NCBI RefSeq assembly: GCF_037975245.1
Contig: NC_092580.1
Location: 21,438,501-21,502,500, forward strand
Origin: Apostichopus japonicus
Lineage: Eukaryota > Echinodermata > Holothuroidea > Aspidochirotida > Stichopodidae
DNA: 64,000 nt
Reading direction: 5' to 3'
How positions within the stretch are numbered: the first letter of the stretch is position 1; each line of letters begins with the position of its first letter. Below, in pieces: positions 19,299 through 45,400 of the stretch. Both the position numbers and the translations under genes were made by a program. Below the pieces are notes generated by a model, which ran no database searches, had not been told where the DNA came from, and was given only the letters and a program-made list of their open reading frames with translations.

Positions 19299-19326
19299 AT
19301 GTCTAACCTGCAGACAGGAATAACTT
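19299..19326 (+). CDS. TWF: Twinfilin exon 1 (start codon)
   Basis: This 28-nt exon encodes residues 1-9, reading MSNLQTGIT, and ends one base into codon 10 before a GTAAGT donor. The family starts MSHQTGI or MAHQTGI, which fixes both the start and the frame. Phase 1 matches exon 2. It is far too short for a standard ORF search. Confidence 0.88.
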
Positions 19327-22300
19327 GTAAGTGTGTTGAATGTTAGTCGACCAACGTTAGGCATAGGTTAAGTCCGAACTTAGGCCTAATGATGGGTGTT
19401 AGGCAAGGTATAACGATTTGCTAAGCAGTTAAGTTTGTTATTAGGCCTAGCCTAAGGAGAAAAGAGTATAGATACTTTCAAGTAACGATCAACTTTGGGT
19501 AGGCCTAGGCCCTATCAATCGTCAAGTACAGTAATGTTATTAGTCCAAAAAACGCAAGCCCCAAAAAAGTTTGTGTAACGTAAAAAAAAAGCTTGCGTCC
19601 CAATCAAACACTGGTTGCATTCATTGTATTACCTACTGTTACTAGGGTAGTGTAGTAACACTGCCTTTACTTTGTGAATGTTATACACAAGGTATAGGGC
19701 AGATGGCTCAGTGCCTTAGCTTCGCTGTTTGACAGGCGGCCCGGCCCACTCCTCCTTTCACCCACATTTCCCTCTCAAACAATTTTCCATCCCCAGCCCC
19801 CTCCTTCATCCGCCCTTGTACTTCCCTACTCACCATCTCCGTAGCAGTTCCATGCTTTGATCTTGCAGCGCTAATTCCAACAACCAACTCTTCAAAAATC
19901 ACTGTACCTACAGTTTGCATATCTCTCACTAAATACCCCACAGTTCACTGTTTCAAATTGCTCTTTTTTTTTGAGAAACAAACCCCAAGTACACACTCAC
20001 AACTAGGGCATTGGAAAACATAACAAAACACATTTTTGAATGAACGTCTTTCATTATTTGCCAATTTTTCTGTGACACAACCAGCCAAATTGTTTGCCAT
20101 ATTTACCCAAATAAAAATATGCCTGATAAAACCTGGGTGAAAATGTGCCCAATACAAAGTTTTGTTGTCATGACAATTGACCCTGTATATTAGTAAGAAT
20201 TTTGTGTGTTCGCAATTCGTTGCAATTGGGGTTTCTAAGATGAACATTAGGGAGTGAAACATGTTTAAAAAAATCCAATGTTTTTAAACAAATGTAGGCC
20301 AAGTTACAATCTTTTGTTGGACTGAAAGACATTAATTGGTTGTAATCAGTGATCTTTGGGAAAATTTAAACCATTTTCATTGACTTTATCTCCGAAATTG
20401 TAGGGATATTAAAAAATGCCAACATGCTGTTTGACCTTATCTTTCAATTTAATCCGGCTGATGAAAAATGCCAAATTTGACATTTAATATGCCAAACTGA
20501 CAACACTAATTTTATTCATCATGGCATACTGACAAATGAACAAATTAGTAAATTACTATGCTAGTGCACTGTATAGCAGTATTTATGCACAGAAAATGTT
20601 TAGTATCTTTGTAAGAGCCTTCAAAACTGGTACTCAAAGTTTGAACACTAAAATTTATTCTCAAACATAAATTAGATAGAAGATTAGGCATTTTCATCCT
20701 AGCAGGAAAATCTTTAGAGTATAGAGGCTAACTGGCACAAAGGCAGACTAAAGGCATATAGGTGTATTGTCTGCAAGGACTGTGGATTGCTTTGCTATGT
20801 ACTATAGAACAGTTTATTCCATTTCAGATGACCATTAACAATTTGTCCAGTACTTTGTTTAATGGACAGGACGTGCACTTCCTGCTTCTGTTGCAGTATA
20901 TTTTGGCAACAAATCAATCCTGTACTGGATATAACTGACAAATGTTTTCACTAATACTAGAGCAAGAAACATCTGAATTCATGGTCTGTTTGAAGGCATT
21001 GAAGACTCACCCCAAACCAAGTGCGGCCATCTGAAAAAGTTAACTTTCTGTTGCTTGCAAGTGACGTTTTGTTTGTGTCGCTACAAAATGCAGACAGTAA
21101 TGAAACGTGATACCTTAATTGTTATCTTTAGCTGGACCTGAGATGTCCATCGCTGTATCGTTTGTATACTGTGCTGTGGGTATTGACCGCAGCTGTATGT
21201 ACTGACTGTACACTAGTGTCTAATTATCCACGGTAGCAAGCTGTGTGTAATTTCCTGGGATCAATGGTGGTGTTTAACACTTCTGTTACACCTCATTCGA
21301 AACTAGGTCAGAATACCGGCATTAGACGTTTCTTTTTGCGTGAGTCTTCACACCCTTTAAGAGGTGCGCAGGGAACACAAGCTTCTATAAAATCCTTGAT
21401 TCTCTTTCCTGTTCCCTTCGTTCATTGTGAAGTGTCAACGTACAGTAAATTGTACAATTGTGCAGGCCGTTTCCTGGACTTGGAGGCACTTGGAGGGTCA
21501 AAGTTTATTTATGTTCTTGAAAATATTGTCTCAGCGATCATTTGAAAGTGAACAGTTAAGTTGTTGTATCTAGACAGAGACTGGATAATACCACTTGTTT
21601 AGATATCAGCATTACTGTATTTCATTTGCTCAGTCTTTGTTTAATACTAATATTTGGGGGAAACAACATCCACTATTGATATACAATTCTTTGTGTTTTG
21701 CATACTGACAAAGATTAAATATAAATCAGTGGTGGGAACATTTAGTTCCATTGTCTTTACAATGGAATGCAGAAGAGGGACACAAAATGTCAGTAATTAA
21801 AGTCCATGGTGAATTTAGAAATGTTGTTATCCATCATCATGACTTAAGTTTTAATAGCATCCATTGCTAACTTAGTGTACCCTTCTAAGATTATCAAACC
21901 CTGTGCAGTTAAACACATTGACACACTAAATTCTATGGAGACAGGTGTTTCAGCTCTGCCACTCCCGAAGTCTGGAACAATTTGCAACAAACATCCGTAG
22001 AACACCTAATCTTAATCGTTTTAAGACAGATTTGAAGAAGTACCTTTTTAGGCTGTTTCAAAACTGTCATTATACTTCTTAGCATGATTTAACTGTTTTT
22101 GTCCCTTTTTACTTATTTTTATATTGTACAGCGTTCGAGATTTCTGGGAGTTGCTATATAAGTATTGCGTATTATTATTATTATTATGATTACTGTGTCA
22201 TATCGCTTTTATTACAGGTTCTGATGGCCTCAGGGAAGTATTGGCCAAAGCAAAGGGCAAGGGGCAACGTCTTGTTCAAGTCTTTATTGAAAATGGTATG

Positions 22301-22811
22301 CTTTATCAAATGTCTGTATTGGATTTGTTTCTTAGTTCTGTTTTGAAGTTATTTGGTACCTCACTTCAATTGTGGTGTCATATTTTTATAATTCCATTGG
22401 ATGTAAGAATTAAGAATTTTGTTTTCATTTATCGTTCACCAGTTTAAGTATAAAATACTTATAAACAGGAGTATCAGGATTAAAGATCTGTTAAAAGGTT
22501 AATAAATGCTGAAAAATATTACTAGAAAATGTAATTTAGTCAACAATAAAAGTTAAGTGCTTCTGTTTGAATAAAGAAAGCAGCACAGCGGATGAAAGAG
22601 ATTGCGAAGGATTGTATTCTACATTGTCGCAAAATAGGACGGTCATCAACATACATACATACATACATACATACATACATACATACATACATACATACAT
22701 ACATACATACATACATACATACATACATACATACATACATACATACATACATACATACATACATACATACATACATACATACATACATACATACATACAT
22801 ACATACATACA

Positions 22812-22842
<31 letters not shown>

Positions 22843-25800
22843 TAAGTTTCTTTCATCCCGATAGACTTGGCTTCAGCAGCCAGTATTTACAATTTTATGT
22901 TGTGATTAAGAATCTAAATGAGATATATTTTAAACCTACTCAAGAAATTTCAGTAACCGGTCTTTACCCTTTTCGAAAAAGCAAAATTATACCAAACAGT
23001 GACTGCGCGGATAATAATATGTTATCGAATGACAGAATTACTGTTAGGACATTATTCTTTCCCTCTTGATTAAAGAATGGCGCTATGTAAGGCTAGCTAA
23101 GCTTGACATAATGTAATTTACTTTACTCAATATCTAAGATGTAGATAATATACAGTATGACATGAAAAAGTAAAAGTCGTTTTTTTTTTTTTATCGATAC
23201 ATACCCTAAATATTCAGATTTAGGTACTCTTTTCAACATCAGATAAATTCAGAATTCATATCCCTGTGTGGGTAATGCTCTGTGACTTTGATATCAGTTC
23301 TACTTTATGCTTTTATATTGACCGTGTTTGCAATACAGATTTCTTTGCGTTTTCTTTGGGTTATGAAACAAACTATTGTGCTCACACATGGGAACCAAAT
23401 CTGCAGTATTATATTTGTAATTCATTTTGTATATCATAAAGCAAACCATATAGTTATATTGTATAGTTATTGAGTATTGTGACTAGATCTTTCAATAGCA
23501 TAATTACTTGAATTAAACTTGAAACTGATAGACACTTGAACCGCCAGTGAGTAGTACTGCAATGAATGTGAAATTAATGTAAAACATTCCCTACAGAAAC
23601 ATCATCATCGATAGAGCCTAGTTTTTTTATAATTTTGTAAATACGATATGTACAGTAGAAAGGACATGCTGTGGATATCAATTTATATATGTGTCATATA
23701 GTTTGTGTCATCAGATGGTGTTTATAAATATGGAAGGTTGCAGTAAGTTTCAGGGAAAATCCTTAACAATTTTTGCTGGTTGACCCCCCCATCCAGACCT
23801 CCACGTTTAGATTTTGCAATCCTTAAAAAAAATCTGGTTGCCCCCCCCCCAGACATCCAGGTTTAAGGTTTTGGTTGTCCAAACAGCAATTTTCCAAAAA
23901 ATGTAGGGAATTTAGCAGGTCAGAATAGAAATTTAGTCGTCTCGCAACGACCATGAAAAATTTGCCACGAGTTGAAACTCTCGAGAGTTGAGATAAGTAA
24001 TACTGTAATGATGGAGAACACATTTTGTGATAACTGTTAATATATTGTTGCTAATGATATATATATAGAAGTTGTCAGTATACACTGTACAGTAAGTAGT
24101 TTTATTTTCAGATGTGTTGTTCTTAGTTATAGGGTATCTTGCAAGCAGTGAACACACACATATATAAATATATATGTATATATATAAATAAATATATATA
24201 TACAAATATATATAAATATATATATATATATACAAATATAAATATTTATAGAGTTGCCAACCAACCAAAGGTATATACATAGATATATATTTCCTTTTCC
24301 CTCTCATTCATTTTCCACTATTTTTTTATTCCTCTATTTCTTTATTCGCAGAAAAATTGGAAAGTGGTGCAGTCCACGATGATTCAGGGTCCTCCTGGGA
24401 GAGTGATATCCTTTTGTAACTTAAATTCAGGTTTTACGAAGGTTCAGCATGATCCTCGTCCTTCGTACCTCAGATATATAAATGAAATATAAAACAAAAC
24501 AGGAAGTAATTATTCAAATGTTCAGTTTTCAAAGAACATCTCGTTCGTCTTATCAGATATTCACAGTTTTTCATCTGTTTACTAATACTTCTGTAAACAA
24601 ATGCAAATAGCAAATGCAAATGCAAATTAAAACATTATTTACCTCCAAATATACTCAGAACACTCTATATAACTCTGATTTTACCCCAATTAACTTATTG
24701 CACGACTATTTGGTCAGGAACCTATTCTACAAATCTTAATCACCTATGTGTCCTCCAGAAGAGAGCTATCCGCCATATATCACATGCTCACCACGTGATC
24801 ATACTAGCCCATTATACAAAAGATTAAATTTATAAGAACTAAATGATATTATAAGAGTCCAGCTTGCAACATTTGCATATAAAGAATGGAATGGATTGCT
24901 ACCCGAGGCTTTTAAAGATTTTATATATAGTAATAGACTAATCCACAACCATCAAACACGCCATTGTAATAACGCCCATGTTTTATCCCAACGAAGTACT
25001 TTAAGTTCTTTTAACCCTCGTATTCGTGCTATAAAAACGTGGAATAATCTCCAGGATAATGTTAAGAATAAGCCTTCATACTCTGTATTCAAAAGGAATC
25101 TCCAAACTGTAATTATTTCTCACTATTGATGGATTTATTCTTGTGTGTGTTTGCGATTAAGATCATTATAAAGATTGTTAGGATTGCTTATTAACATTAT
25201 TAATTTCAAGTAGAGTCAATTCGATTATTTCATCATTGTAGATGCTACTATTAACTTTTCTTTTTCTATTCTTAAGTTTTTCTTTCTTTTTTCTTTTAGG
25301 GGAGTCTCCTACTTTGTTAAGCCTTACAGGCTTTATAGGAAACTTCCCGTCACACTGTAAATTGTGATGAAACAAATAAATATACAAATACAAATATATA
25401 CAAATGTAATGATTCAGGTTCAACCACCAAACCACAATAATTTGAATATATTCTTATATTTTAATATATTTAAAACATATACATCAATTTTTTGCCTGAT
25501 GATTTTTGCCTGCGATTCACAGGGTAAAGTTGACCAGGTAAAGTTGTATAATGGTGAAAGTATTAAAGTTGAATTGTGGTGCCACTTTTCAGTCACATGG
25601 GATTAACAGTAAGCTTTGAATCATTGAGGTTAGGTTTAGTGCATATATCCTGAAAGGTTAGGATCAGCTTAGGCTTATAGCTACTTCAATAGAAAAAGTG
25701 ACAGTTGTAATAGTTGCAACTGTCTGAGTACTGCTACTTTAGTTTTCAACTTATTAACAAGTTAATCCAATCCACAATAATTTGCCCCACAAGGTCATTT

Positions 25801-28800
25801 TAATCAAGTTTGCTAGATTTCCAAGGCTCCAACTTTCATGCTTAAATTTCACGGTATCTTTTGCCATGTTTGTAGAAATAAGTAACATTATTTTGCGATA
25901 CCTTGTCTTTCCTGGCGCTATAAATTTCGACAGACTTTGTCGAGTTCAACGGAAACCACAACAGAAGTGTCTTTAATATACATCTAGTGACTACAGAAAA
26001 CAAGGCATTTGAAACATTTTAGTTGATTCTACTTAACAGTAGAGAATAGCAAACTTCATACAAGATAGTTTTACTAAAAACATTCTGACATCCCATGATG
26101 GAGAGAGTCCTTTGCAGAAATTTTGATTTGAGAGGTGTTTCTTTTTCGTCTAGCTTTGTTCCTTAAAGTTGATTGTTCACATTATGATCAGCTAATCTTA
26201 CCAATAGCCCAGGCTTCTCGTTCATGCTACATCCTTTATCGACTCGATGAAAAACTCGGAGACAGTTACTTGTGGATCTTCATCTACTATATACCTGACA
26301 CAGCTCCGGTAAGTTTTGACCGACCCCTATAAAGTCATCTCACAAATTTGATAAAACAAAAAGAAAAAGAAAAAAATGTTTGAGTGGATTCCCTGCACTT
26401 TCACTTTCCATTTGATTCTATCCTATGAACAATTAATTTTTGCAGATTTGTGTCATTAAAAAAAGTCATTTTCTTCCTGTTTCGAGCACGTATTCTTCAC
26501 CTGCTTGTCGAGTTAGATGTTACCTCCATGCTAACAAACAGGTCAAATAGAATATTCAGATGAAGTGCAAGCAACTTCACCTGACAAATGACAGGCACTC
26601 GTGGAGTAGTGGAATGGAGGGTGTGGGGTATGAGGAAAAGATAATTAAATACCAGACAGGAGGAATCCACCAATCTTCATGTTAAATCGTCCTATATATT
26701 TTTTTTGGGGGGGGGGGGGGTGGGGGTATATTCATGACATGGATTTAATTGCATGTTAAAATTTGTATCTCATTTAGCTTTTTTGTCCTTTAGTGTAAAT
26801 CTTCTACTGTATCTTCTTTCCAAACAAATAATAGGAGTTTGAAATTTGATAATTTTCTTACTTCATGTTTTGCATCATACAGTATTTACTGTTTTCACCA
26901 TTTTTGGGCTGAAAAAGTCATTCTTTTTGTCTTTCCTTTCAAGGTGAGGGACAAGATGTTGTATGCCAGTACAAAGTCAACGATGAAACAGGAGTTCGGG
27001 GGTGGCCTTATAAAGGAAGAAATGTTTGGAAATGTGCCCGTAGGTACCCTTTGAAATGACTTGCAAGTAGTTAACGGTTGTATCCTAAGTTTGAAATATC
27101 ATATCATGATGATAATGCACAGATTTCTGATTTTATTCGTAAATTAAGGGATACTTTCAAATGGCCGAAAGTGATTGATTCAGAATATGTCGTAAAAACG
27201 TCCTGGTAGTATGTCTAATCTCACAGATATGGATTTGACAGAAATGTTATGAATGACTTGTATGTGAAGGCAGAAGAGAGACCATGTAAAGTACACATCT
27301 TTGTAGTTTTTTGTTCAACAAATCCTTTCATGAATATCATGAAATATATTATCAACAGAGGAGAAGAAGTGCTTCTTGTGCAATTAAAGGTTGAGAACCA
27401 ACCATTACATAGATTAAAATTACATTGCATTTCAACGGGGAAATGAACAAGAATTAGTAAAGGAGAGAAAAGCTGCCGTTTCAGTATTTGTAGAATGACC
27501 ACTGCGATCCTTTTCATGGGGAAACTATATTGTGATTTGTCTTGAAACAACCATGTATATTGTCATCAAGGTATAAATGGTTTGTTTTCAAGCACACACT
27601 TTAGTCATCAAGGTATGAAGGTTTGTTTTCAAGCACATACATGTTGTGACAATGTCAAATGTAGTGTTGCTCAAGTTTTCAGTTTTATCATGTATATGTT
27701 GATACTTGCCAAAAGAAGTAAGATATTCTTAGCCCTTCAGGAGAGTTTCATTTCACATGCCTCTATATTACACATGGCCAACTATGACCATTAGGTTTGC
27801 TTCTGCCTTAAGAAACAAGATACTCTTGTCAGCAGTATGAGGTTTTTTTTTGTGTCTTTTTCTTCTTCGTCTTCTTCTTCTTTTCCACATTGTCTGCTAC
27901 TGGAATATATCCCTTGTTAAAGATTTCAAGTTACTTATTGTTTACACTAAGGGGAAATCCCTGTGATCAAGTACTTGTATGAAACCTTGCAAATTGTTTG
28001 GACAGACTCGTTAATGTATATATGAATCATAACTCATCATCACAAAAGATATGGAGAGGAAATTTTGTTCAAGATATCAAGGAACTACTTTCCAGACAGT
28101 GCGATTATGTGTGCAATCGTTGGTTTTAAGTTCCGATATTTTTGGCATTTTCGGTGATCTGACCGATGTAAGAAAAGAAAATAGGACAGAATTGAAGTCT
28201 AGCTACGTGTTTAATTTTGCTGGTTTATGGCAAATGATACGTATCGTCTGTTCGTAAGGGGACAGTTATTACAAATGAAGAGTATAGTTTGCTCAAAAAC
28301 TAGATATTACAAGTCTTCTAATATTTAGAACCTGGGATAAATGTGTTGGAAATATAAGCTGTCAAATGGTGGGGCATTTATTTGGGTCAAAGTTCACAAC
28401 GGAAATATGTCATTAAGTTTGTACAGGATGACGGAATGAGGAAGTAAGGTTACCAGCAAACACAAAACGTTATCATAACATTTTTAAAAGAGCCTCTAAA
28501 ATATGTTTTTATAACGTTAAATGTGGTGTTATAAAACCGTCAGCATAAGGTTTTTATGAAATATTAATGTTGTATTAATGTTATATTAATGTTTTAACGA
28601 AAAAATGTTTTGAAATAATAGCCTGAAAACGTTTTCGTGACATATTTATTACACCACAAATATCATTATCAAACCAAAAGACAAAACCTTTTAATAACGT
28701 ACCAAGGTATTGCCAGAATACATCTGAATATGCATCATCATCCTTCTACAAGCAGCTCAGATGCATCGTTTTTTGCTGAATTCTTAATAGAATCGATGCT

Positions 28801-31800
28801 ACGAAATACCGTAAAAATATAGTCTCAATAAATGGACTTGTCAAGTTATATATTTTAAACAATGAAACTTACTCCAAGGTGAAGGAGGACTTTTAATATG
28901 TCCCATTTGTATCGTGCATTTGTTTCTGTAGCGAGTAGTGACCTAATGTAAGCAAGCAGCTTCATCAAATGTATTTCAACGCAAATCTAACATAACATAT
29001 ATATATATATGTTGAAACACTAAAACAATAAAATTCAATTAAGCTTTGCTATTTTTCATCAAGAAATGCAGAACAACAGAATTTGCTGGCTGATATTTTG
29101 TCAAATTAACATTAATTTTATAAAATTGTCAGTCAATTTAGAAAGCTATATTTTTTTTTGTCTGATCATTGTATTCTGACTGACTACAATATTGCAGAAC
29201 CCTAAAGTGTCCTTGCTTTCATTTATTCATTTAATTTTTTTAAATTTTGTGTCTAGCATATATTTTCCTGTTTTTACTTTGTTCTCATTGAACTTGTTTA
29301 TGAAATTTGTACATTCCTTCTATTATATTTTAGTCTGTCATGAACATGTTTTTTTTTTGTCTACCTTGTCTTTTTCTGAAGGATGACATATCTTTACACG
29401 GCTACAAGAAACATCTAGCAGTGAAAGCTGCCCCGGGTCCTTTATCCGCTCTGGAAGAAGATATCAAATACGTGAACGAGCTGGAAGGCGGCAGAGCGCA
29501 TATAAGTGTGGATTCAAAGCATGAAACAATGAAATCTGTCGGGTTCCCTGTAGTCAGGGAAGCCTTGGAGGCACTCAGGGACTTTAAAAACAAAAAGGTC
29601 AATTATGTACAACTGGTGAGTAGCTATTTGATGTATGCCTTAGATATATATATATTTTGTAATTCCAAGTTCAGTTACTTACTGGATGGAAAATTTATAA
29701 ATTGATTTTTTTTTTCAAATAATTCACAACTCTGTTCTTCGTCTTGGAACAAACTTTGTCTGAACTTGTTATGTTCTAAGCTCAGCGTTAATTCCAGACA
29801 GGTCTGTTACAAGGGAAATTTTACTATAGTTAAGAAGATTTTACTATAGTTAATAATATGAAAGTTAATAATATGAAAGAATATATGAAGAATAATATGA
29901 AAGAAAATAATATGAAAGTTAATAATATGAAAGAATAAAATGAAAGTTATTTCTCACGTTAAGTTTGCAAGAAAAGTTTCATATTCATACTAAATTACTG
30001 ATTGCAAACATGTCTGGGGAGAAAGGAAAAAAAATGTATTCAGACCTAATCGTGAAAACTTAAACAGCAAATTTTGGATTGCATTCATTATGAAAGTCGA
30101 TTAGGTTAGCAGTTGTCAGCAAGGTGACTCTTTAATTAAGCAAACTTTTGCCTCTCCTTTAAATTCAGCTCTTGGATATCACAGCCGAGGAAGTTCATCT
30201 AGCTCTTTCGGAGTCAACAACTGTTACAGAGCTCCCCAGCAGGATACCCACAGACACAGCTAGGTACCACTTGTTTCGATTTGATCACACGTATGAAGGC
30301 GACAGATTTGACAGTGCTAGTGAGTACTATCCAAAAAATAATTCAAAGTGGGGGGGGGGATGCTCTTGTTTATATTATCATTTTTGAAGAATACATGTAC
30401 TTGCATTCTCTTACATCTATATCATTTCATAATGTCAATAATTGATAAGAATGGATGGTTTGTTTCGGTTTCAGATGATACCAGGTTATCAAGTTTTGCT
30501 TGGTTTCAATTGTTATAGTAAACACAGTCAACATTCACTACAAGGCATTTTTACTCCTTCCTGATGCCCAAATCAAATACAGGACAAAGTTTAAAAACTG
30601 AAATTTGATTTCATTTTCGTTCTCTGTTTTTACTATGTGAAAGGGTTATTTTTAACCGCCATTTTATGAAAGTATAAAAAGCAACTCCCTGGCACACATT
30701 TTTTGAGTCAACAGGTTATGTGTATATATGACACTTACAATGTCAAAGACGGCATTGTAATAAACTGCATTTCAGACCTTGTAAATTAATCAAGACGCTC
30801 TCCAAATTTGTGACCCGTTGTATGCTGTTCATGGAAATACGCAGGTACAATTTGCACCCCCCCCCTTCTTCTTTATTATCATCTAAAAGGAAATTATTCT
30901 CCACCCTTTTACTCCAAGTCAGATTGCAAAATTTAATCTAATGACTGTAAAAACATGTTTTGTATTGTATGAAACTCATTTGCAACACAAGGCACTGTGA
31001 TCCTAAATTGCTCAATCATTTAATCATGAATTAGGCTATTTTTAAGTCCACTAAAAAAACTCTGGAGTTTTGTTGTGTTTATAGGTTTACTTCTGGTTGT
31101 CCCTCACCCAACCAGGCCTTACTGTTTGGTTGTCCGAACAGCAAATTTTGTTGTCCAAAAAATATCAGCAAGATGACAAATGGGAGATGTGTAGGTTTGT
31201 TGAATAGAACAACAACTTTTGGGGTGATAGGAATTTATCATTTTACCTGTTTTAAGGTGTTTAGTTACAATGCAATCTGAACTTGATGTGAAAAATTAGT
31301 CATTTGTCGGACAACCCCCAAATATGTTTTTTTTTTATTGTCTGAACATCATAAATTTGGTCATCTCAAATGACCGTACCACCGTTAAAAATTTGCCCTT
31401 CCAGTGTGTTAACAATAAACTTGACAAAGAAATTAGATTAAATGAAGCTCAAACACAAAAGCAGAGTTTTATAATAAGAGGTATATTCTCATCAGAGATT
31501 TAGTCCAATCTCGAGTTAGCAACGGTCATGAAAAGTCACTAAAAATATCATTTTTTTTTACAAATCTATTTAATAATGGTATTCTTTGTTGGGCTTGTTA
31601 CTGTGCATATAGTGTTTCAGTTGCTGAGAGTGTGAGCATGTGTATGAAACTCGAAAAAGGCAGGAAAGGAAATATTTCCTTAAATAATGGTGCTTAGATG
31701 ATCAGTAATTGCTGAGATTGCTCAGTAATCAGATGATCAGATCATAACTGCTGACTGGCTCCTTTCATTCTATTTGTGATACTTAATAAGACTCTTGTTT

Positions 31801-33716
31801 CCTTCTAGCTTGGAATTTTCAGTTTTCTTGATTTAGTAGAAAGATGCACTTTCTCTTTTGTAATTGACAGTTTTCATCTACTCAATGCCCGGTTATAAGT
31901 GTCCCATTAAAGAACGAATGCTGTACTCCAGTTGCAAATCGACGCTGCTGGACGTCATCGAAAATGAGGATCAAGGGGGGATAGAAATCACCAGAAAGGT
32001 TTGTGACTTTGTTTTTCCCGGTTCAGTGAATGGAGAAAGAGCTGTAGGCTAATTTTCTGTCATCTTCAGAGTGTAATATTGATGGTATTTTCTGCCGATC
32101 AATGTTGCCGACTCAAAGATAAATTAAATGTCTCAGCCGATGGATGTGTGAGGTTAACAGGGGTCACTTTTCAAAGAGAAACTTAACAATCATCCTAAGG
32201 TCTGAAATATTTTCATAGCAAATGTCCCTAGACTCTGTGTCTACTTTGCTTCTGTGAGCCGGTCGGGAAGTTATTGTCATAATTATGACTGGAGCATTTG
32301 TTTCACTTTCACATTGTAGATGACCAAACATGTAACATAGCAAAATAGCACCAATACATTGAAGTTACTTGAAAACTAGTTCCTTTAATCATAGCACTAA
32401 TTTCTTGAATCTGGAGAATACTGTATCTGTGGTAAAAACAAAGAATGGCCCAGCTTGGGTTTTGATAGCAAGACACTTCGCATACACTATCAAGATGCTT
32501 TCAAAACTATATATTTAAATATAGGCTGCGTAATGACCCACTCGCTAAAATTGGCAAAATAAATTGATTGACAACTTCCTTGTGATTTTAAACTGTTAAT
32601 GGCAGCTGCACAAAGTCAATTGGTTAACACCTGTCATTGTCAAGTCTGCCCAAAGATGTCTATTATCAATCCTGACAAAAGTGTGTGTCCTTTCAAAACT
32701 GATTGATCCAGTCAAGGGAGCTCGTTTAAAGCAGCCACTTTGTTTGAGAGAATGCAACATTTGTGTGCAATGTTTCCTGTTATGTAAGATATGAGGTCAG
32801 GGTTTTGCATGAGATATGAGATACATTCATTTTCAAAACAAGCTTTTACTGACATCACCTTCGAAGTTACGCCCCTGGGCTAAGTATACTTAGCATATTG
32901 GGACAGACCTTTACTGTATTCAATTTAAAACGCAGAAAGTTCCAGCGAACTGCAAAGCTTTTGATAAAGAAATTGGATGGGTTTAATAAAGTTCATCCTG
33001 AAAGATGAGAAATTAAGTTATGTATTTGCTTATTCCAAAAGTATTTGCAACCAGCTTAACATCAGCAGGAAAATGCTGTCAATTGTTGAAGTGTAGTCCT
33101 TAAGTTTTGTTTAGTTTGCTGAAACATATTGTAAAAATTTTAGTAGAAAAATGGGAAGAATTGGATTAGCACTTGTGCAGGAATGAATCACTACTTAAAC
33201 CTTTTGGCTTTCTGCTCCGATTTATTTGTGTTTACAGGAGCTACCTGTCTTGCTTTAAATCAACCAATTCCTTTTTTTCATAGGTTCACCATATATATAT
33301 TATGGTAATATACAAGGAGAGTAAAAAGTCTTAAAAAGAGCCTGATGGAATCATTAAGTGTTCTGGAGTTATCTTCCATTTGGTGTAACCATTAACCATA
33401 GAGGTCTTAGTTTGATCATTTACAAAAGTCATTTTTTTCTGAAACACTTTGTATTTTTGGTACTTTTGTCAGAAATTTGTTATTAATCAGCAGACCAGTG
33501 GCAAATATTTTGTATGGTAATTAATATGTTTTGTCCATCTCTGTTCCATCTGGACAGCTGGAATTGGATAGCGGGGAAGAACTCTCGGAAGACTACTTGC
33601 TCGAAGAGATCCATCCAAAGAAGAATCTGCACAGACCGGCCTTCGCTAAGCCCAAAGGACCGGTGGGCAAACGTGGGCCAAAGAGGATGATAAAGAAACA
33701 AGAAGGAGAGCAGTAG
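19299..33716 (+). CDS. TWF: Twinfilin, whole gene (9 coding exons, 351 aa)
   Basis: Twinfilin binds ADP-actin monomers, caps barbed ends and binds capping protein in the cytoplasm. Coding exons are 19299-19326, 22218-22295, 24352-24405, 26181-26308, 26944-27039, 29382-29615, 30169-30319, 31871-31998 and 33558-33716. They join in phase to 1056 nt, and human TWF1 has 350 residues, so the gene looks complete. Residues about 1-140 are the first ADF-H domain and about 176-314 the second, recognised by [17 protein letters not shown] and FIYSMPGY. The tail holds HPKK, FAKPKGP and KRGPKR, the conserved capping-protein and lipid-binding region. All splice sites are GT-AG except intron 3, which fits a U12 AT-AC intron. 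AATAAA lies at 33750-33755. No frameshift or internal stop was found. Family assignment is very secure; exon edges come from reading phase and family alignment by eye. Confidence 0.95.
20994..21355 (+). mobile_element. MITE-like repeat, copy B (twinfilin intron 1)
   Basis: Diverged direct copy of 16382-16734 with the same inverted end motif. The open frame across it (21243-21545) shares codons with copy A only at the DNA level and shows no protein signature. Confidence 0.65.
21945..22190 (+). mobile_element. LINE 3' end (CR1/L2-like) in twinfilin intron 1
   Basis: Plus-strand frames read [13 protein letters not shown] and a frame-shifted RFEEVPF, as at LINE C-termini, followed by a 3' UTR and an ATT-repeat tail at 22171-22187. 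It ends about 30 bases before twinfilin exon 2. Confidence 0.65.
22218..22295 (+). CDS. TWF: Twinfilin exon 2
   Basis: The exon begins after ATTACAG and ends at G|GTATGC. It encodes about residues 10-35, the first helix and strand of ADF-H domain 1, including [14 protein letters not shown]. This lines up with the RLLKISIENEQL region of known twinfilins. Phase 1 at both ends matches its neighbours. Confidence 0.92.
22650..22841. repeat. ACAT/ATGT tetranucleotide microsatellite, about 190 bp
   Basis: Some 48 uninterrupted units of CATA in twinfilin intron 2. All frames stay open as YIHT or MYVC repeats; these are not genes. Confidence 0.98.
23800..23970. repeat. Dispersed GGTTGTCC-AACAGCAA repeat, copy 1
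   Basis: Shares GGTTGTCC(G)AACAGCAA and CCAAAAAAT with 31090-31400; both lie in twinfilin introns. No coding signal. Confidence 0.5.
24155..24250. repeat. TA-rich microsatellite in twinfilin intron 2
   Basis: Imperfect ATATAT, AAATA and CAAATA units about 100 bases upstream of exon 3. Confidence 0.85.
24352..24405 (+). CDS. TWF: Twinfilin exon 3 (upstream of the AT-AC intron)
   Basis: This 54-nt exon starts after TTCGCAG and encodes about residues 36-53. Its first codon, shared with exon 2, restores the family motif ENE. It ends TGG GAG AGT G and is followed directly by ATATCCTTTT, the U12-type AT-AC donor consensus. Using that donor gives WESDYD, matching WDKDYD and WERDYD of known twinfilins without insertion. 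A nearby GT at 24403 would need extra residues here. Confidence 0.85.
24406..26180 (+). other. TWF: Putative U12-type AT-AC intron of twinfilin
   Basis: The intron opens ATATCCTTTT and closes TTCAC. TTCCTTAAA at 26159-26167 differs at one base from the U12 branch-site consensus TTCCTTAAC and places the branch adenosine 14 nt from the 3' end, inside the usual 10-20 nt window. Splicing here yields exactly the family spacing. Competing GT-AG choices (donor 24403 with an AG at 26152-26153 or 26167-26168) stay in frame but insert residues. The intron also contains a LINE 3' end. Confidence 0.8.
24640..25410 (+). mobile_element. LINE 3' end in the twinfilin AT-AC intron
   Basis: Frames read [14 protein letters not shown], then from about 24840 a clean 77-codon run with [32 protein letters not shown] and [12 protein letters not shown] ending in a stop at 25129. 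These are LINE C-terminal motifs. A GCCTTACAGGCTTTATAGG hairpin and an AAATACAAATA tail close the copy near 25410. Confidence 0.8.
26181..26308 (+). CDS. TWF: Twinfilin exon 4
   Basis: The exon encodes about residues 54-96 of ADF-H domain 1, with [15 protein letters not shown] and the IPDTAP end. It begins after GATTGTTCAC, an AC acceptor preceded by the branch-like TTCCTTAAA at 26159-26167. It ends before a GTAAGT donor in phase 0. Confidence 0.9.
26944..27039 (+). CDS. TWF: Twinfilin exon 5
   Basis: Exon of 96 nt in phase 0, after TTTCAAG and before GTAGGT. It encodes [13 protein letters not shown] and KQEFGGG, a highly conserved stretch of ADF-H domain 1. An alternative donor four bases on would break the frame into exon 6. 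Confidence 0.93.
28450..28640. repeat. AACGTT-rich repeat in twinfilin intron 5
   Basis: Begins GGTTACCAGCAAACACAAAACG and carries several AACGTT, AACATTTT and ATTAATGTT units. Probably a dispersed repeat with loose internal inverted copies. Confidence 0.5.
29382..29615 (+). CDS. TWF: Twinfilin exon 6 (linker and start of second ADF-H)
   Basis: Exon of 234 nt in phase 0, after TTCTGAAG and before GTGAGT. It encodes [12 protein letters not shown], which closes domain 1, then the linker with [11 protein letters not shown], and the start of domain 2 ending NKKVNYVQL. It is the longest coding exon. Confidence 0.95.
29815..29945. repeat. Tandem AATAATATGAAAG repeat in twinfilin intron 6
   Basis: Five imperfect units of TTAATAATATGAAAG preceded by two TTTTACTATAGTTAA units. 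Confidence 0.8.
30169..30319 (+). CDS. TWF: Twinfilin exon 7
   Basis: The exon follows AAATTCAG and ends at A|GTGAGT, phase 1. It encodes the middle of ADF-H domain 2, with [17 protein letters not shown] and YEGD, near-identical to family consensus. A G-rich tract lies about 30 bases into the next intron. Confidence 0.94.
31090..31400. repeat. Dispersed GGTTGTCC-AACAGCAA repeat, copy 2
   Basis: Second copy of the family at 23800-23970, in intron 7, with an inverted-looking partial unit near 31310-31370. Confidence 0.45.
31871..31998 (+). CDS. TWF: Twinfilin exon 8
   Basis: The exon follows ATTGACAG and ends AAG|GTTTGT in phase 0. It encodes [16 protein letters not shown] and [12 protein letters not shown], the most diagnostic motif of ADF-H domain 2 in twinfilins. 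Confidence 0.95.
33558..33716 (+). CDS. TWF: Twinfilin exon 9 (C-terminal tail and stop)
   Basis: The last coding exon follows TGGACAG and ends with TAG at 33714-33716. It encodes the final ADF-H strand and the C-terminal tail with [17 protein letters not shown] and GKRGPKRM. These residues are known in the family to bind capping protein and phosphoinositides. Confidence 0.95.
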   Translation: MELDSGEELSEDYLLEEIHPKKNLHRPAFAKPKGPVGKRGPKRMIKKQEGEQ

Positions 33717-39431: not shown

Positions 39432-42400
39432 CTGAAAAAACAATACCATCGAAAGTAGAGAGTAACAGATATTTCATAAACTGTTGGTAAATGTACAGGA
39501 CTAAGTCAACACCCCTTCCTTTAATTTTACTCATATAGACTAAATGAAAAGCAAGTCATTGTATACATGCTATGGGGGAAAAAATACTAGAAATGTTATC
39601 TATTTTCTACTCATCACTTCAAAGAATTTGAGACATGTCTCATGCCTAAATATGTTACAGAAGGTATCACCAATGCAGTTTGAATTTTAAAATTTTAAAA
39701 CTAATTAAACAGAAATTTGGTAAGCACTGGCTTTCAACCAACTACCTGCATGTAGCTGGGCTGTTCAACTCTTTGATAAGCAGGTTCTTGTCCTTGTTCA
39801 CCATTTTGTTGCTGGTTGGTACAAGCTATTGAACCTTGCATAGAACCTTGAACCTTGCATATCATTTCACTGAGAATTGTTATCAAGATATACATTCAAA
39901 CAGAATGCCAAGCCCTACTCTCCCTTCCACAACTTTAAAGCTCAGACCTTTTGAAGGGAAGTTTACTGAGAGAAAAAGATAACAAGTTTGAGTTTTACTC
40001 TGAGAATACATGTATTACATTACATATTCTAGTATCAAGACTTCCTTTTTTTTTAAGGACTAATCAATAGTCAGTCATAAAACAGTTCACCTCATACAAA
40101 AATATTCATACATGTAGAATATATAACACTGATAAACTCACAGCTGGAGGTATTGGGAAACAGAGGAGGTTGAATCCTTTGGCGGATATAGTCGAAATGA
40201 AGAAACCATGGTGATTTCAGACAGAGAACAGATCAGTTAAGTCTGAATGGTGGATAACATTGTTCAGGGTTTCATAAAGACTCTAAAAACTCACATATCT
40301 TTCTTCTTTTCTTGCAAATCTTCCAGACGTTTCTTTTTGTTCACTTCAAGCATTGTTTGTCCATAGAGCTTTTGCATTGCTAGTAGACAACAGCCTGCAG
40401 GGACCCTACGAAACAAAAGTAAACAGTATGGTGAAATGCAGGAATAATTTATCAGGTATCACATCGCATTCAAAATAGTTTGCAACTTGCAAATACAAGT
40501 GTAAGTATGTATCATAGTTTGATGTTCATAGAGAGCATAGTATTGTGAAAGAATTCACAATCTACAAAACTATGTACTACACAAAGGTTTAACACTACAT
40601 GATTGCCTGGACTGAGGACACAGAGGGGTGTATTTGATAATACTTTAATTAAGAGGCAGAAATGAGGTAGGCAAGTCTTCAGAATTGGACAGCAACTGCT
40701 TAACATATTTCCTGCTTAACACTTGCTTAACACTGCTTAACCTGCTTAACCTGCTAACCTGCTTAACACTGCTTAACACTTTCCTCTGTGAGTAGCGCCG
40801 GCCAGCCGATTCAGGGTTCTTGGCCAAAGGTGTGGTATTGTAATTGGCCAGAGAGTGAAGATGAACAAAAAATAAATCCAGAGAGGTGAAGGTATTTTAA
40901 CAGCGATATATTGAAAAGAAAACTTCTTACAGTTAGGTTAAGTGTGTTGTACTGGATATGTGGTACAAACTTGAGGCTACGTGGCCCTGAAGCCTACCAT
41001 CAAGAGTGTTTCGTCCAACAGCAACCAGAGTAGACTGGTCTGTCCCTCCCAGGTAATGCATTTTATATCAATCCCTTAACAATAAGTGGAAATACCACAT
41101 GTATACAAATGATGAACTTGACCCTACAACTTAGCTTAAGACATAATACACAAATACTACAGTGCATTCCTACCATCCCCAAGCAATTGTACTCCTTTAC
41201 AGGGATGAATGTGATCACATGAGTATCCCTAGAAAATATCACATGTGTTACATCACAATCCCAGGATAAGCCTGATACCACATGCCAATCCATAGAAGCA
41301 GCCCAAAGCCATAATCTGCCAACAATTACAACTGGTTTACTTATAATGCCAGGAGAGATAACCCCTATATAATTCCAAGGAAATTTAAACACACAATGGT
41401 CAACACCGTCCACACAGAACTCCCATTGCTCCACAATTTTACAGTAACAGCGTTACAATATTATAATCCAACATCGTCAGGAGAAATTTAACCATTCCAG
41501 GGGTTGACAAGCTTCGAAGGGAGATGGATCGGGCGAGAGAACGGTGGCTAACAAAACAGTGTGAAGAAATTGAAAACTTAGATCAATCAGGACGAATGAA
41601 CATCATGTACAAGAAAGTGCAACAACTAACTTCAAACAAGGGAAACTATAATAATACCCAGGTATTGGAAGATAAACATGGAAGGATGCTAACTGAAGCT
41701 GAGCCAATTAAAGCAAGGTGGATAGAATACATAGAAGATCTGTATGGAAAGTCTGAAAAACCAAATGAGCTCCCCTTGGAGGAAGAACAACACATACAAA
41801 TTGATGACATCGGACCGGACCTATTGGAAAGCGAGTTAAGAGCGGCGATAACCAGACTGAAAGGAGGAAAAGCGGAAGGAGAAGATGGCATCCCCGCCGA
41901 ATTCATAGCAGCCTTAGAAAAGGGAGCACAGAGAGAATTTTTCAACATCTGTATGGATATTTACCAAGGCGGTAAATGGCCTGATGATTTCTGCAGAAGC
42001 ATTCTCGTGCCATTGCAGAAGAAGAAGAATACAACTAAGTGTGAAGAACATCGAACTATCAGTCTAATATCCCATGCATCAAAAGTTCTCCTACATGTGC
42101 TCACAACCAGACTGGAGAAACATGCCAACGAATGGATAGGAAGAGATCAATTTGGATTTAGAAAAGGCTGTGGAACTAGGGAGGCGATTGGAGTTATGAG
42201 AGTACTAAGTGAGCGCGGCATAGAATTCAATCAAGATGTGTTTGTCTGTTTTGTGGACTTCGAGAAGGCCTTTGACCGGGTAAACTGGAGCAAGTTATTG
42301 GAGATTCTAAAGAAGATTGGTATAGACTGGAGGGACAGAAAGCTCATCGCCGAGTTGTACATGAAGCAGACAGCGGTAGTAAGAACTACCATGGGCAAAA

Positions 42401-45400
42401 CAAAATCAGCCACAATAGGGAGAGGAGTGAGACAAGGATGTCTTATGTCTCCAGTCCTATTTAACATCTACGCAGAAGCCATGATAATTGACGCACTTGA
42501 TGAAATTCAAGAAGGAATACAAGTTGGAGGACAATGGATAAAGTCGGTACGTTTTGCAGATGACCAGGCAATGTTAGCAAGCACGGAGGCTGGACTTCAA
42601 CGTATGATGGAGAATACCAACAGAGTTGTCAACCAGTATGGGATGAGGATTAACATCAAGAAAACGAAAGTCATGAAGATTGCAAGGGAACAAAGGAGAG
42701 TTCACATAGAGATAGAGGGAAAGGAACTTGAACAGGTCAGACACTTCAAATATCTTGGTAGTCTACTGGCGGAAGATGGATATTGTGAAACCGAAATCAG
42801 AGCAAGAGTGGCAATGGCCAAGGAAACTTTCAAACTACACAACTCTCTTTTTACTGCTAGTCTTGAGTTACAGTTAAAGAAGAGACTAATGAAATGTTTT
42901 GTGTGGAGTGTATTCCTGTATGGCTCAGAAACCTGGACACTAAGGAAAAGAGGACAGAAAAAGAATAGACGCATTGGAGATGTGGCTATGGAGAAAGTCT
43001 GAGAACATAAAGTGGTCAGACAGGGTCACAAATGAGGAAGTTCTACAGAGGGTTGGTGAGGTCCGCAGGCTGGGAGAAACTATTAAGCTGAGAACGAAAA
43101 GGTGGATTGGGCACATCTTGAGACATGACGGACTACTGAAAGATGTGCTTTAAGGTAGAATGAACGGGAAGCGACCAAGAGGGAGAAAGAGAATAATGTT
43201 GATGGATGATATCAGAGATGGCAGAAATTATTTCACTATGAAGAGGAATGCAGAAGAGCGGTTATTATGATTTTGTGTTTGGTGAGGGACCTGCCTTAAG
43301 GCAGATCACCTTTAGAGAGAGAGAGGGGTTGACAGCATTATATATTAAGACCAGGCTGATTATAGTCAGAGCAAATTGAGGAATTCTGAGAGAGAACGAA
43401 GTTGGTGAGGGGGGAGGGCTGGGGAGGTGGTAGCCATGAAATACACAGCTACTTGAGTGCTAATTCAAATGACCATGAAGTAAGTGCTGTCAGTCAGCTT
43501 GCTAACTTAATATAATGATAATAATAATTATCATAATAATAATAATAATAGGAATTCATAAAGCACAAAATGCAAAAGCCTCTAACTTACCCTAACATTG
43601 CCCCAACAACTCCTCCACCAACGACCCCTCTTACACCCAAGTTCACTCGGTAGAGGGCACCTGTGCATACTTGGAACATAAACAAATCATATTCAATGAA
43701 AATGCTAAGAAGATATTTAAAAAAAAACAATTTGTAGCTTCATGTTAAATAACCATTTATACTAAATGCAAAAACATGTGCTCTGAATTCCAGTGCTGAA
43801 TCCATTGAATCTAAAACTTAGATGCTCTTAAAAATATTGAAAGTGTTCTTGAAATACAAAATGAACTGACAGCAGTCCTTTCCAACAGTCCCACCAAATC
43901 CAAATTAATTTTGTGCCTTAGGTTATCATTAAAATGTGAGTGCTTGGAAAACGAAGACTGTACACTGCATTTACAGTACTTCACTACAGATTAACCCATA
44001 TCAATTATGACAGTGTTTGGCCATGTTACAATGTTAATGTAGATTTTGTTCCATTCAAGTTCTGTCCAAATTACAGTACTAACTCACGACTTAGTAACTA
44101 CAACACCTAATACCACATTTGTAATCACACATCTGCTTAAAATGCTCTCTCCCATAAACACCTCAAACTATAGGTACTGAGGTGCATCTGATTGCATGAT
44201 CATGTGAAATATGCAACCTTGTCCCAGCCCTCACCTATAAGCTGCCTATACATGCTTTAGTATCCACTGTCTGTGTATTATGAACTCAATTCTAAGCAAA
44301 GATGTTTCCTTCTTAGTCTTCTCGATGACTTACCAGATGCAGCCGTGTAGTTCAACAGATCTGTTTTATCGCGATACACCGCTAGAAAAGAGGACAGACC
44401 ACTGAAAAATAGAACAACAAATTAATCAAAACAACAAAACAAAATACAAAAACAAAACCCTTCCTATCAATATATCATGCTAGTGGCCAATCATATAGAG
44501 ACAAGGTGCTAAATTGTCTCTTGATATGATACTAACATGACATTGTTACATGTATTCATGTTGGGATATGTTGAATACTACCAGAAGCAGGCACTATTTT
44601 TATTCTCTGCATGGCAATATTTTACTGCTACAGTTACGAAATGTGTCACATTTCAACAGAGGGTAGAGAATAATTTGAGATGTACATGCATGGCTACAGT
44701 CTTGAGGTTTGCATGTTTTGTAGATATGATCTGCGCACAACTATCTTATAGCAATTTGACCAACTAGATTACTACAACACAGGCGATCAAAGTGTGTAGT
44801 CCAGCGTTCTAGCTAAGGGTTTGTAAAGCCTGGTTGCCTGGCCTGGTCAGGTTTGTCATACTTTCACAAAGCATTTTGGGTTTCCTCTTAGCATCTTCTT
44901 TGATGTACTTAGAAGAAGCAACTAACAGAGGTAATTCTGAACAGAGGTTCCTTACGATTATTTCAGCATGGTGCTACATGTTACTTTTACCAAATGTTTG
45001 TATCAAACCATGTTTTGTTTGTGACTATACAAATTCTTGCAACAGGTTGCCCCATTTTCCATAATCAAACTTTCCAGACATGAATATGAAAATAAAAAAC
45101 CCAGATAAAGAGTCCACGACCCACCTGGCCATGACCCACCATTTGGAAACCAGCTCTCCAAAAAATTTCTTGGTATTCATTATGCAAAAGATCACTACTG
45201 ATAAGCATGTCTTATTTTGGTCAGAAAGTCTCCTGGGTTACCCCTTTGGACAACCTTTACTTTCATTAAGGTAGCCACATTAGTTGTCTGTTGGTTGACT
45301 GAGTGCTTTTCAGGTACCACATATCTTTCTATTAACTGTAAGTTACTCTACCATAAAATTGTGGTAAATTGTCCCCCCCCCCAAAAAAAAAACATGAAGA

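Follow-up and report, generated by a model that had tools for sequence, protein, structure and literature searches.

Evidence for a U12-type AT-AC intron in the twinfilin gene of Apostichopus japonicus

In the minor splicing pathway, U11 and U12 bind the donor and the branch site together, U6atac, U4atac, and U5 are then recruited, and the branch A is used once. The U12-type consensus sequences are RTATCCTTT for the donor and TTCCTTRAY for the branch site, the U2 donor consensus is MAG/GTRAGT, and U12-type introns typically lack a pronounced run of pyrimidines ahead of the 3' splice site. The closest described counterpart of the intron reported here is the AT-AC U12-type intron of mammalian SMYD2, which reads ATATCCTTTA ... 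TTCCTTGAC ... AC and lies in phase 1 (PMC7367187). Introns with AT-AC termini account for 24% of minor introns and are thus a minority class (PMC8280824). Loss of CENATAC affects virtually all (92%) of the A-type minor introns versus 24% of the G-type, the consequence being either intron retention or the use of cryptic major sites (PMC8280824). SYCP2 intron 5 and TAF2 intron 1, which also have AT-AC termini, are U2-type introns that are unresponsive to CENATAC depletion (PMC8280824). Minor introns are biased away from phase 0, and their densities in non-tunicate deuterostomes, such as the starfish Asterias rubens, resemble those of vertebrates (PMC10639083).

The window analyzed here, a stretch of 64,000 nucleotides from Apostichopus japonicus, contains an intact gene with nine coding exons between positions 19299 and 33716 of the + strand (Table 1). 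The joined product consists of 351 residues and includes both the start and stop codons. The original prediction had named the gene twinfilin, and this identification was borne out by an alignment with Twinfilin-1 (PDB entry 7ccc_B) that begins at residue 4, opposite residue 3 of Twinfilin-1, extends to residue 345, scores 388.8 bits, and is gap-free at the exon 3/4 junction. Two stretches of the joined protein match the ADF-H family PF00241 (Cofilin_ADF), with the N-terminal part alone scoring 60.9 bits, and residues 319-346 match the Twinfilin-1 tail chains 7ds2_C and 7dsb_D. The likeness to Twinfilin-1 (7ccc_B, and 1m4j for the N-terminal domain), judged by comparing the proteins alone, thus runs over the whole length, including both ADF-H domains and the tail. 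The least certain exon of the gene is exon 1, with its 28 coding bases. A search of the whole genome (671,581,487 bases in 35 contigs) with the joined protein revealed no second twinfilin gene at E <= 0.001, as all seven matches fall inside the window's stretch of contig C20. A scan of bacterial and archaeal contigs for related loci gave 55 pattern matches and, as expected, no relatives.

Table 1. Positions of the twinfilin exons and of the features of intron 3, numbered from the first base of the window.
Feature	Position	Strand	Basis
Exon 1, coding part (MSNLQTGIT + 1 nt)	19299..19326	+	Pattern search upstream of exon 2; GT donor; 7ccc_B alignment
Exon 2	22218..22295	+	Joined-gene model, protein alignment
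Exon 3, ends WES + first base of D codon	24352..24405	+	Joined-gene model, junction test
GT of main in-frame U2-type rival (AGA/GTGATA, 5/9 to MAG/GTRAGT)	24403..24404	+	Junction test
Intron 3, AT-AC, phase 1, 1775 nt, very probably U12-type	24406..26180	+	Signals, pairing, junction test
Predicted U12-type 5' splice site ATATCCTTTT	24406..24415	+	Consensus match; pairing with own U6atac, U11
Putative young LINE-like insertion in intron 3, 5'-truncated	24620..25400	+	Genome-wide copies
AG of main U2-type rival, behind 11/12 pyrimidine stretch	26152..26153	+	Junction test
Predicted branch site TTCCTTAAA	26159..26167	+	8/9 to TTCCTTRAY; pairing with own U12
Terminal AC	26179..26180	+	Sequence; reading frame and W-x-x-D-Y-D
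Exon 4, opens with rest of D, then YDQLILP	26181..26308	+	Joined-gene model, protein alignment
Exon 5	26944..27039	+	Joined-gene model
Exon 6	29382..29615	+	Joined-gene model
Exon 7	30169..30319	+	Joined-gene model
Exon 8	31871..31998	+	Joined-gene model
Exon 9, coding part including stop codon	33558..33716	+	Joined-gene model

Seven of the eight twinfilin introns are of the GT-AG type, and the remaining one is intron 3. Exon 3 ends with ...TGG GAG AGT G at 24405, and exon 4 starts with ATTATGATC at 26181. Between them the intron opens with ATATCCTTTT at 24406 and closes with ...TTCCTTAAAGTTGATTGTTCAC at 26180. The donor, ATATCCTTT, agrees with the U12-type consensus at nine of nine positions, and it is the sole site to do so among the 19,294 RT sites on both strands of the window. 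Against the U2 donor consensus it scores three of nine, versus six to eight of nine for the other seven donors of the gene. The branch site, TTCCTTAAA, matches at eight of nine positions, with an A at the final base where Y is expected. Its eighth base, at position 26166, is the predicted branch A, located 14 nt before the last base of the intron. Only 6 of the 12 bases at -15 to -4 of the AC end are pyrimidines, as is typical of U12-type introns with no strong tract; a pyrimidine stretch does occur further upstream, ahead of the AG at 26153. The U12-type signals on which the original prediction was built, namely the donor, the branch-like sequence at 14 nt, and the AC terminus, were all recovered. 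In addition, the phase of the intron agrees with the phase bias of minor introns (PMC10639083).

Note that ATATCCTTT is not rare by itself. On the basis of base composition, 0.65 occurrences are expected per strand in 64 kb, and one was found on the + strand and none on the - strand. It is therefore the placement of the motif that counts and not its mere presence. At one pre-set site the chance of encountering it is ~1.0e-5, again from base composition, and 25 of the 3,808 AC ends on the + strand have, at a distance of 9-18 nt, a sequence that agrees with the branch-site consensus at eight or more of nine positions. The combined chance for the one junction demanded by the protein is ~7e-8, assuming independence and with three slid positions sharing that mRNA. 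Within the window, 40 of the 19,294 RT sites score at least 8/9 to the U12 donor consensus. The donor of intron 2 (22296-24351; GT-AG, phase 1), GTATGCTTT, departs from that consensus at +5 alone. Given its pyrimidine-rich 3' end, intron 2 is probably of the U2-type; it could have originated as a minor intron that was later converted. It also contains, at ~22640-22850, a long simple repeat that is open in several frames as YIHT or YVCM repeats.

The exon 3/4 junction was tested exhaustively with 29,949 donor/acceptor pairs having any termini. An open frame into exon 4 is provided by 2,126 of these, and the motif W-x-x-D-Y-D(-Q) is restored by three. All three yield one and the same mRNA, with the junction sliding by two bases such that the termini may be written as AT-AC, TA-CA, or AT-AT; none is GT-AG or GC-AG. 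The W-x-x-D-Y-D of the joined protein aligns without gaps with SWDKDYD of 7ccc_B. The assertion of the original prediction that only this splice restores the motif accordingly holds, and its junction, 24405/26181, proved exact to the base. The broader range given for the intron, 24402-26183, does enclose the junction but also extends slightly into both flanking exons. Likewise, the predicted position of the intron inside ADF-H domain 1 is upheld by the Twinfilin-1 alignment and the Pfam ADF match. GT-AG pairs near the junction were considered and rejected: there are 39 frame-compatible pairs in that region (GT-AG, GC-AG, AT-AC, and AT-AG), and the motif arises from one alone. A small exon hidden within intron 3 was also considered, and the joined protein needs none when compared with 7ccc_B.

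The components of the minor spliceosome were sought in the same genome. One scored match above the Rfam gathering score was located for each of U6atac (104.2 bits), U11 (88.7 bits), U12 (115.9 bits), and U4atac (72.2 bits); in each search the best 40-49 of some 29,000-61,000 first-look candidates were scored, and the copy numbers are lower bounds. The CCDC84/CENATAC family is represented on contig C12 by three pieces that share a strand and lie within ~9 kb. There is also one genome match to the U11-48K-type zinc finger (PF05253), a short model that additionally gave a match in an archaeon, one of the 14 genomes used as controls. At +4 to +10 (TCCTTTT), the intron 3 donor is complementary over 7 nt to AAAAGGA in the organism's own U6atac, all Watson-Crick, and TCCTTTTG pairs with the 5' end of its U11 over 8 nt, two of which are G-U. 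TTCCTTA of the branch site pairs with TAAGGAA of its U12 over 7 nt. For the other seven donors of the gene, the pairing amounts to at most 4 nt with U6atac and 5 nt with U11. With G-U allowed, 43 of the 19,294 RT sites possess U6atac complementarity at +4 to +10, and the U6atac pairing is therefore supportive rather than decisive on its own. Because the sequence signals, the W-x-x-D-Y-D test, the organism's own minor snRNAs and marker proteins, and the pairing all point the same way, the assignment of twinfilin intron 3 to the AT-AC subclass of U12-type (minor) introns is well supported, with a probability, as estimated from the sequence, of about 0.95.

The main competing explanation holds that the principal splice is of the U2-type, from GT 24403 to AG 26153, that the U12 signals arose by chance, and that the protein carries eight extra residues. 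Such a splice keeps the frame open, and its acceptor is preceded by 11 pyrimidines out of 12. Its donor, however, matches the U2 consensus at just five of nine positions, and in its product the W-x-x-D-Y-D motif is lost, SD being replaced by ten residues with a resulting 8-residue gap relative to Twinfilin-1. The alignment scores are correspondingly lower than those of the AT-AC form: 372.1 versus 388.8 bits for 7ccc_B, 130.1 versus 147.1 bits for 1m4j, 118.4 versus 135 bits for 2vac, and 56.6 versus 60.9 bits for Pfam ADF. The exception is the PDB cofilin 2i2q, which prefers the GT 24403/AG 26153 form (43.2 versus 29.8 bits). As this explanation also reduces a 9/9 donor and an 8/9 branch site to coincidence, it is considered very unlikely. 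From GT 24403, either of the rival acceptors named in the original prediction, AG 26153 or AG 26168, can be reached in an open frame, adding 8 or 3 residues, respectively. At 26152-26168, immediately preceding and partly overlapping the predicted U12 branch site, there is a pyrimidine-rich stretch with TAG followed by AAAG; by its sequence, this stretch would offer GT 24403 a cryptic U2 acceptor that keeps the reading frame.

Two further possibilities concern how the AT donor itself might be used. A U12-type intron might end elsewhere: with AG at 26168 (AT-AG) it would be in frame, and with the slid AT-AT terminus at 26182 it would give an identical mRNA. Yet AG 26168 lies just 2 nt beyond the branch A, which is too close for use as a 3' splice site, and the AT-AT form would require ATCCTTTTG as its donor, in departure from the consensus; neither end appears at all plausible. 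The intron could instead belong to the known rare class of AT-AC introns handled by the major (U2) spliceosome, as exemplified by SYCP2 intron 5 and TAF2 intron 1 (PMC8280824), whose termini it shares. In contrast to those introns, twinfilin intron 3 displays a U12 donor and a U12-type branch site. The agreement of its donor with the U2 consensus (3/9) compared with the U12 consensus (9/9), together with the 6/12 pyrimidines before the AC, makes handling by the major spliceosome extremely improbable.

On the U12-type AT-AC assignment, ATATCCTTTT and TTCCTTAAA would be recognized jointly by the U11/U12 di-snRNP, and U11 would then be replaced at the donor by U6atac. The branch A near 26166 would attack at 24406, and the AC at 26180 would serve as the 3' splice site, so that WES-D becomes continuous with YDQ within ADF-H domain 1. 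The other seven introns of the gene would be removed by the major spliceosome. By analogy with the A-type minor introns, the splicing of intron 3 may be expected to depend upon CENATAC, and the cryptic-site use reported upon its loss (PMC8280824) suggests that GT 24403/AG 26153 would be the likeliest in-frame fallback.

A substantial portion of intron 3 (~44%) is occupied by a LINE-like stretch, 24620-25400, which would play no part in splicing. It recurs at 96-99% identity in at least 39 other places in the genome (the best 40 of 706 candidates, one of which is the window itself), and in 36 of the 39 other scored copies the match begins at base 24620. When the edges of five copies were compared, four shared further upstream sequence, and the fifth had that sequence on the other strand. 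Upstream of one copy (L019) there is an open frame that, by eye, resembles a reverse transcriptase. Because the matches are 96-99% identical and mostly begin at 24620, with other copies continuing upstream, the window copy is best read, on sequence grounds, as a 5'-truncated, young LINE-like element. A Pfam search with the open reading frames at 24597-24824 and 24836-25126 of intron 3 returned no family. Downstream of twinfilin, the open frame at 41467-43002 spans 511 residues and contains a reverse transcriptase domain (RVT_1, E 2.3e-33).

It can be imagined that the intron serves as a control point, with limiting U6atac or CENATAC leading to retention of the twinfilin message or to the GT 24403/AG 26153 isoform, which has eight additional residues in ADF-H domain 1. 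Minor-spliceosome activity might in this manner tune actin turnover, and the LINE-like insertion, having nearly doubled the length of the intron, might have shifted the balance in this lineage. We regard such a role as improbable.

The kind of intron described here is already known. Minor introns are common in deuterostomes, and the twinfilin case is one more member. AT-AC examples of the same consensus form are printed in PMC7367187 for SMYD2, with which intron 3 shares the donor core, the type of branch site, the AC end, and phase 1. It differs in residing in another gene, in having T at +10 and a branch site that ends in A, and in being assigned here from sequence. Because minor intron densities in non-tunicate deuterostomes are vertebrate-like (PMC10639083), an AT-AC minor intron in Apostichopus japonicus is expected in kind. 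The original prediction had described AT-AC introns as rare; they do form a minority class (PMC8280824), but not one so rare as to occasion great surprise. A limited search of the literature revealed no description of a minor intron in twinfilin; a database entry may well exist.

The twinfilin gene thus adds a well-marked AT-AC minor intron for an echinoderm genome. Annotation programs that assume GT-AG termini are likely to overlook the 24405/26181 junction and to mis-predict the twinfilin protein. Intron 3 can be used as a marker of intron-type conservation or conversion among echinoderms, hemichordates, and vertebrates, the marker codon being that for the D of W-x-x-D-Y-D, which aligns without gaps. 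If the twinfilin intron is minor in some species and major in others, it would provide a dated case of type conversion.
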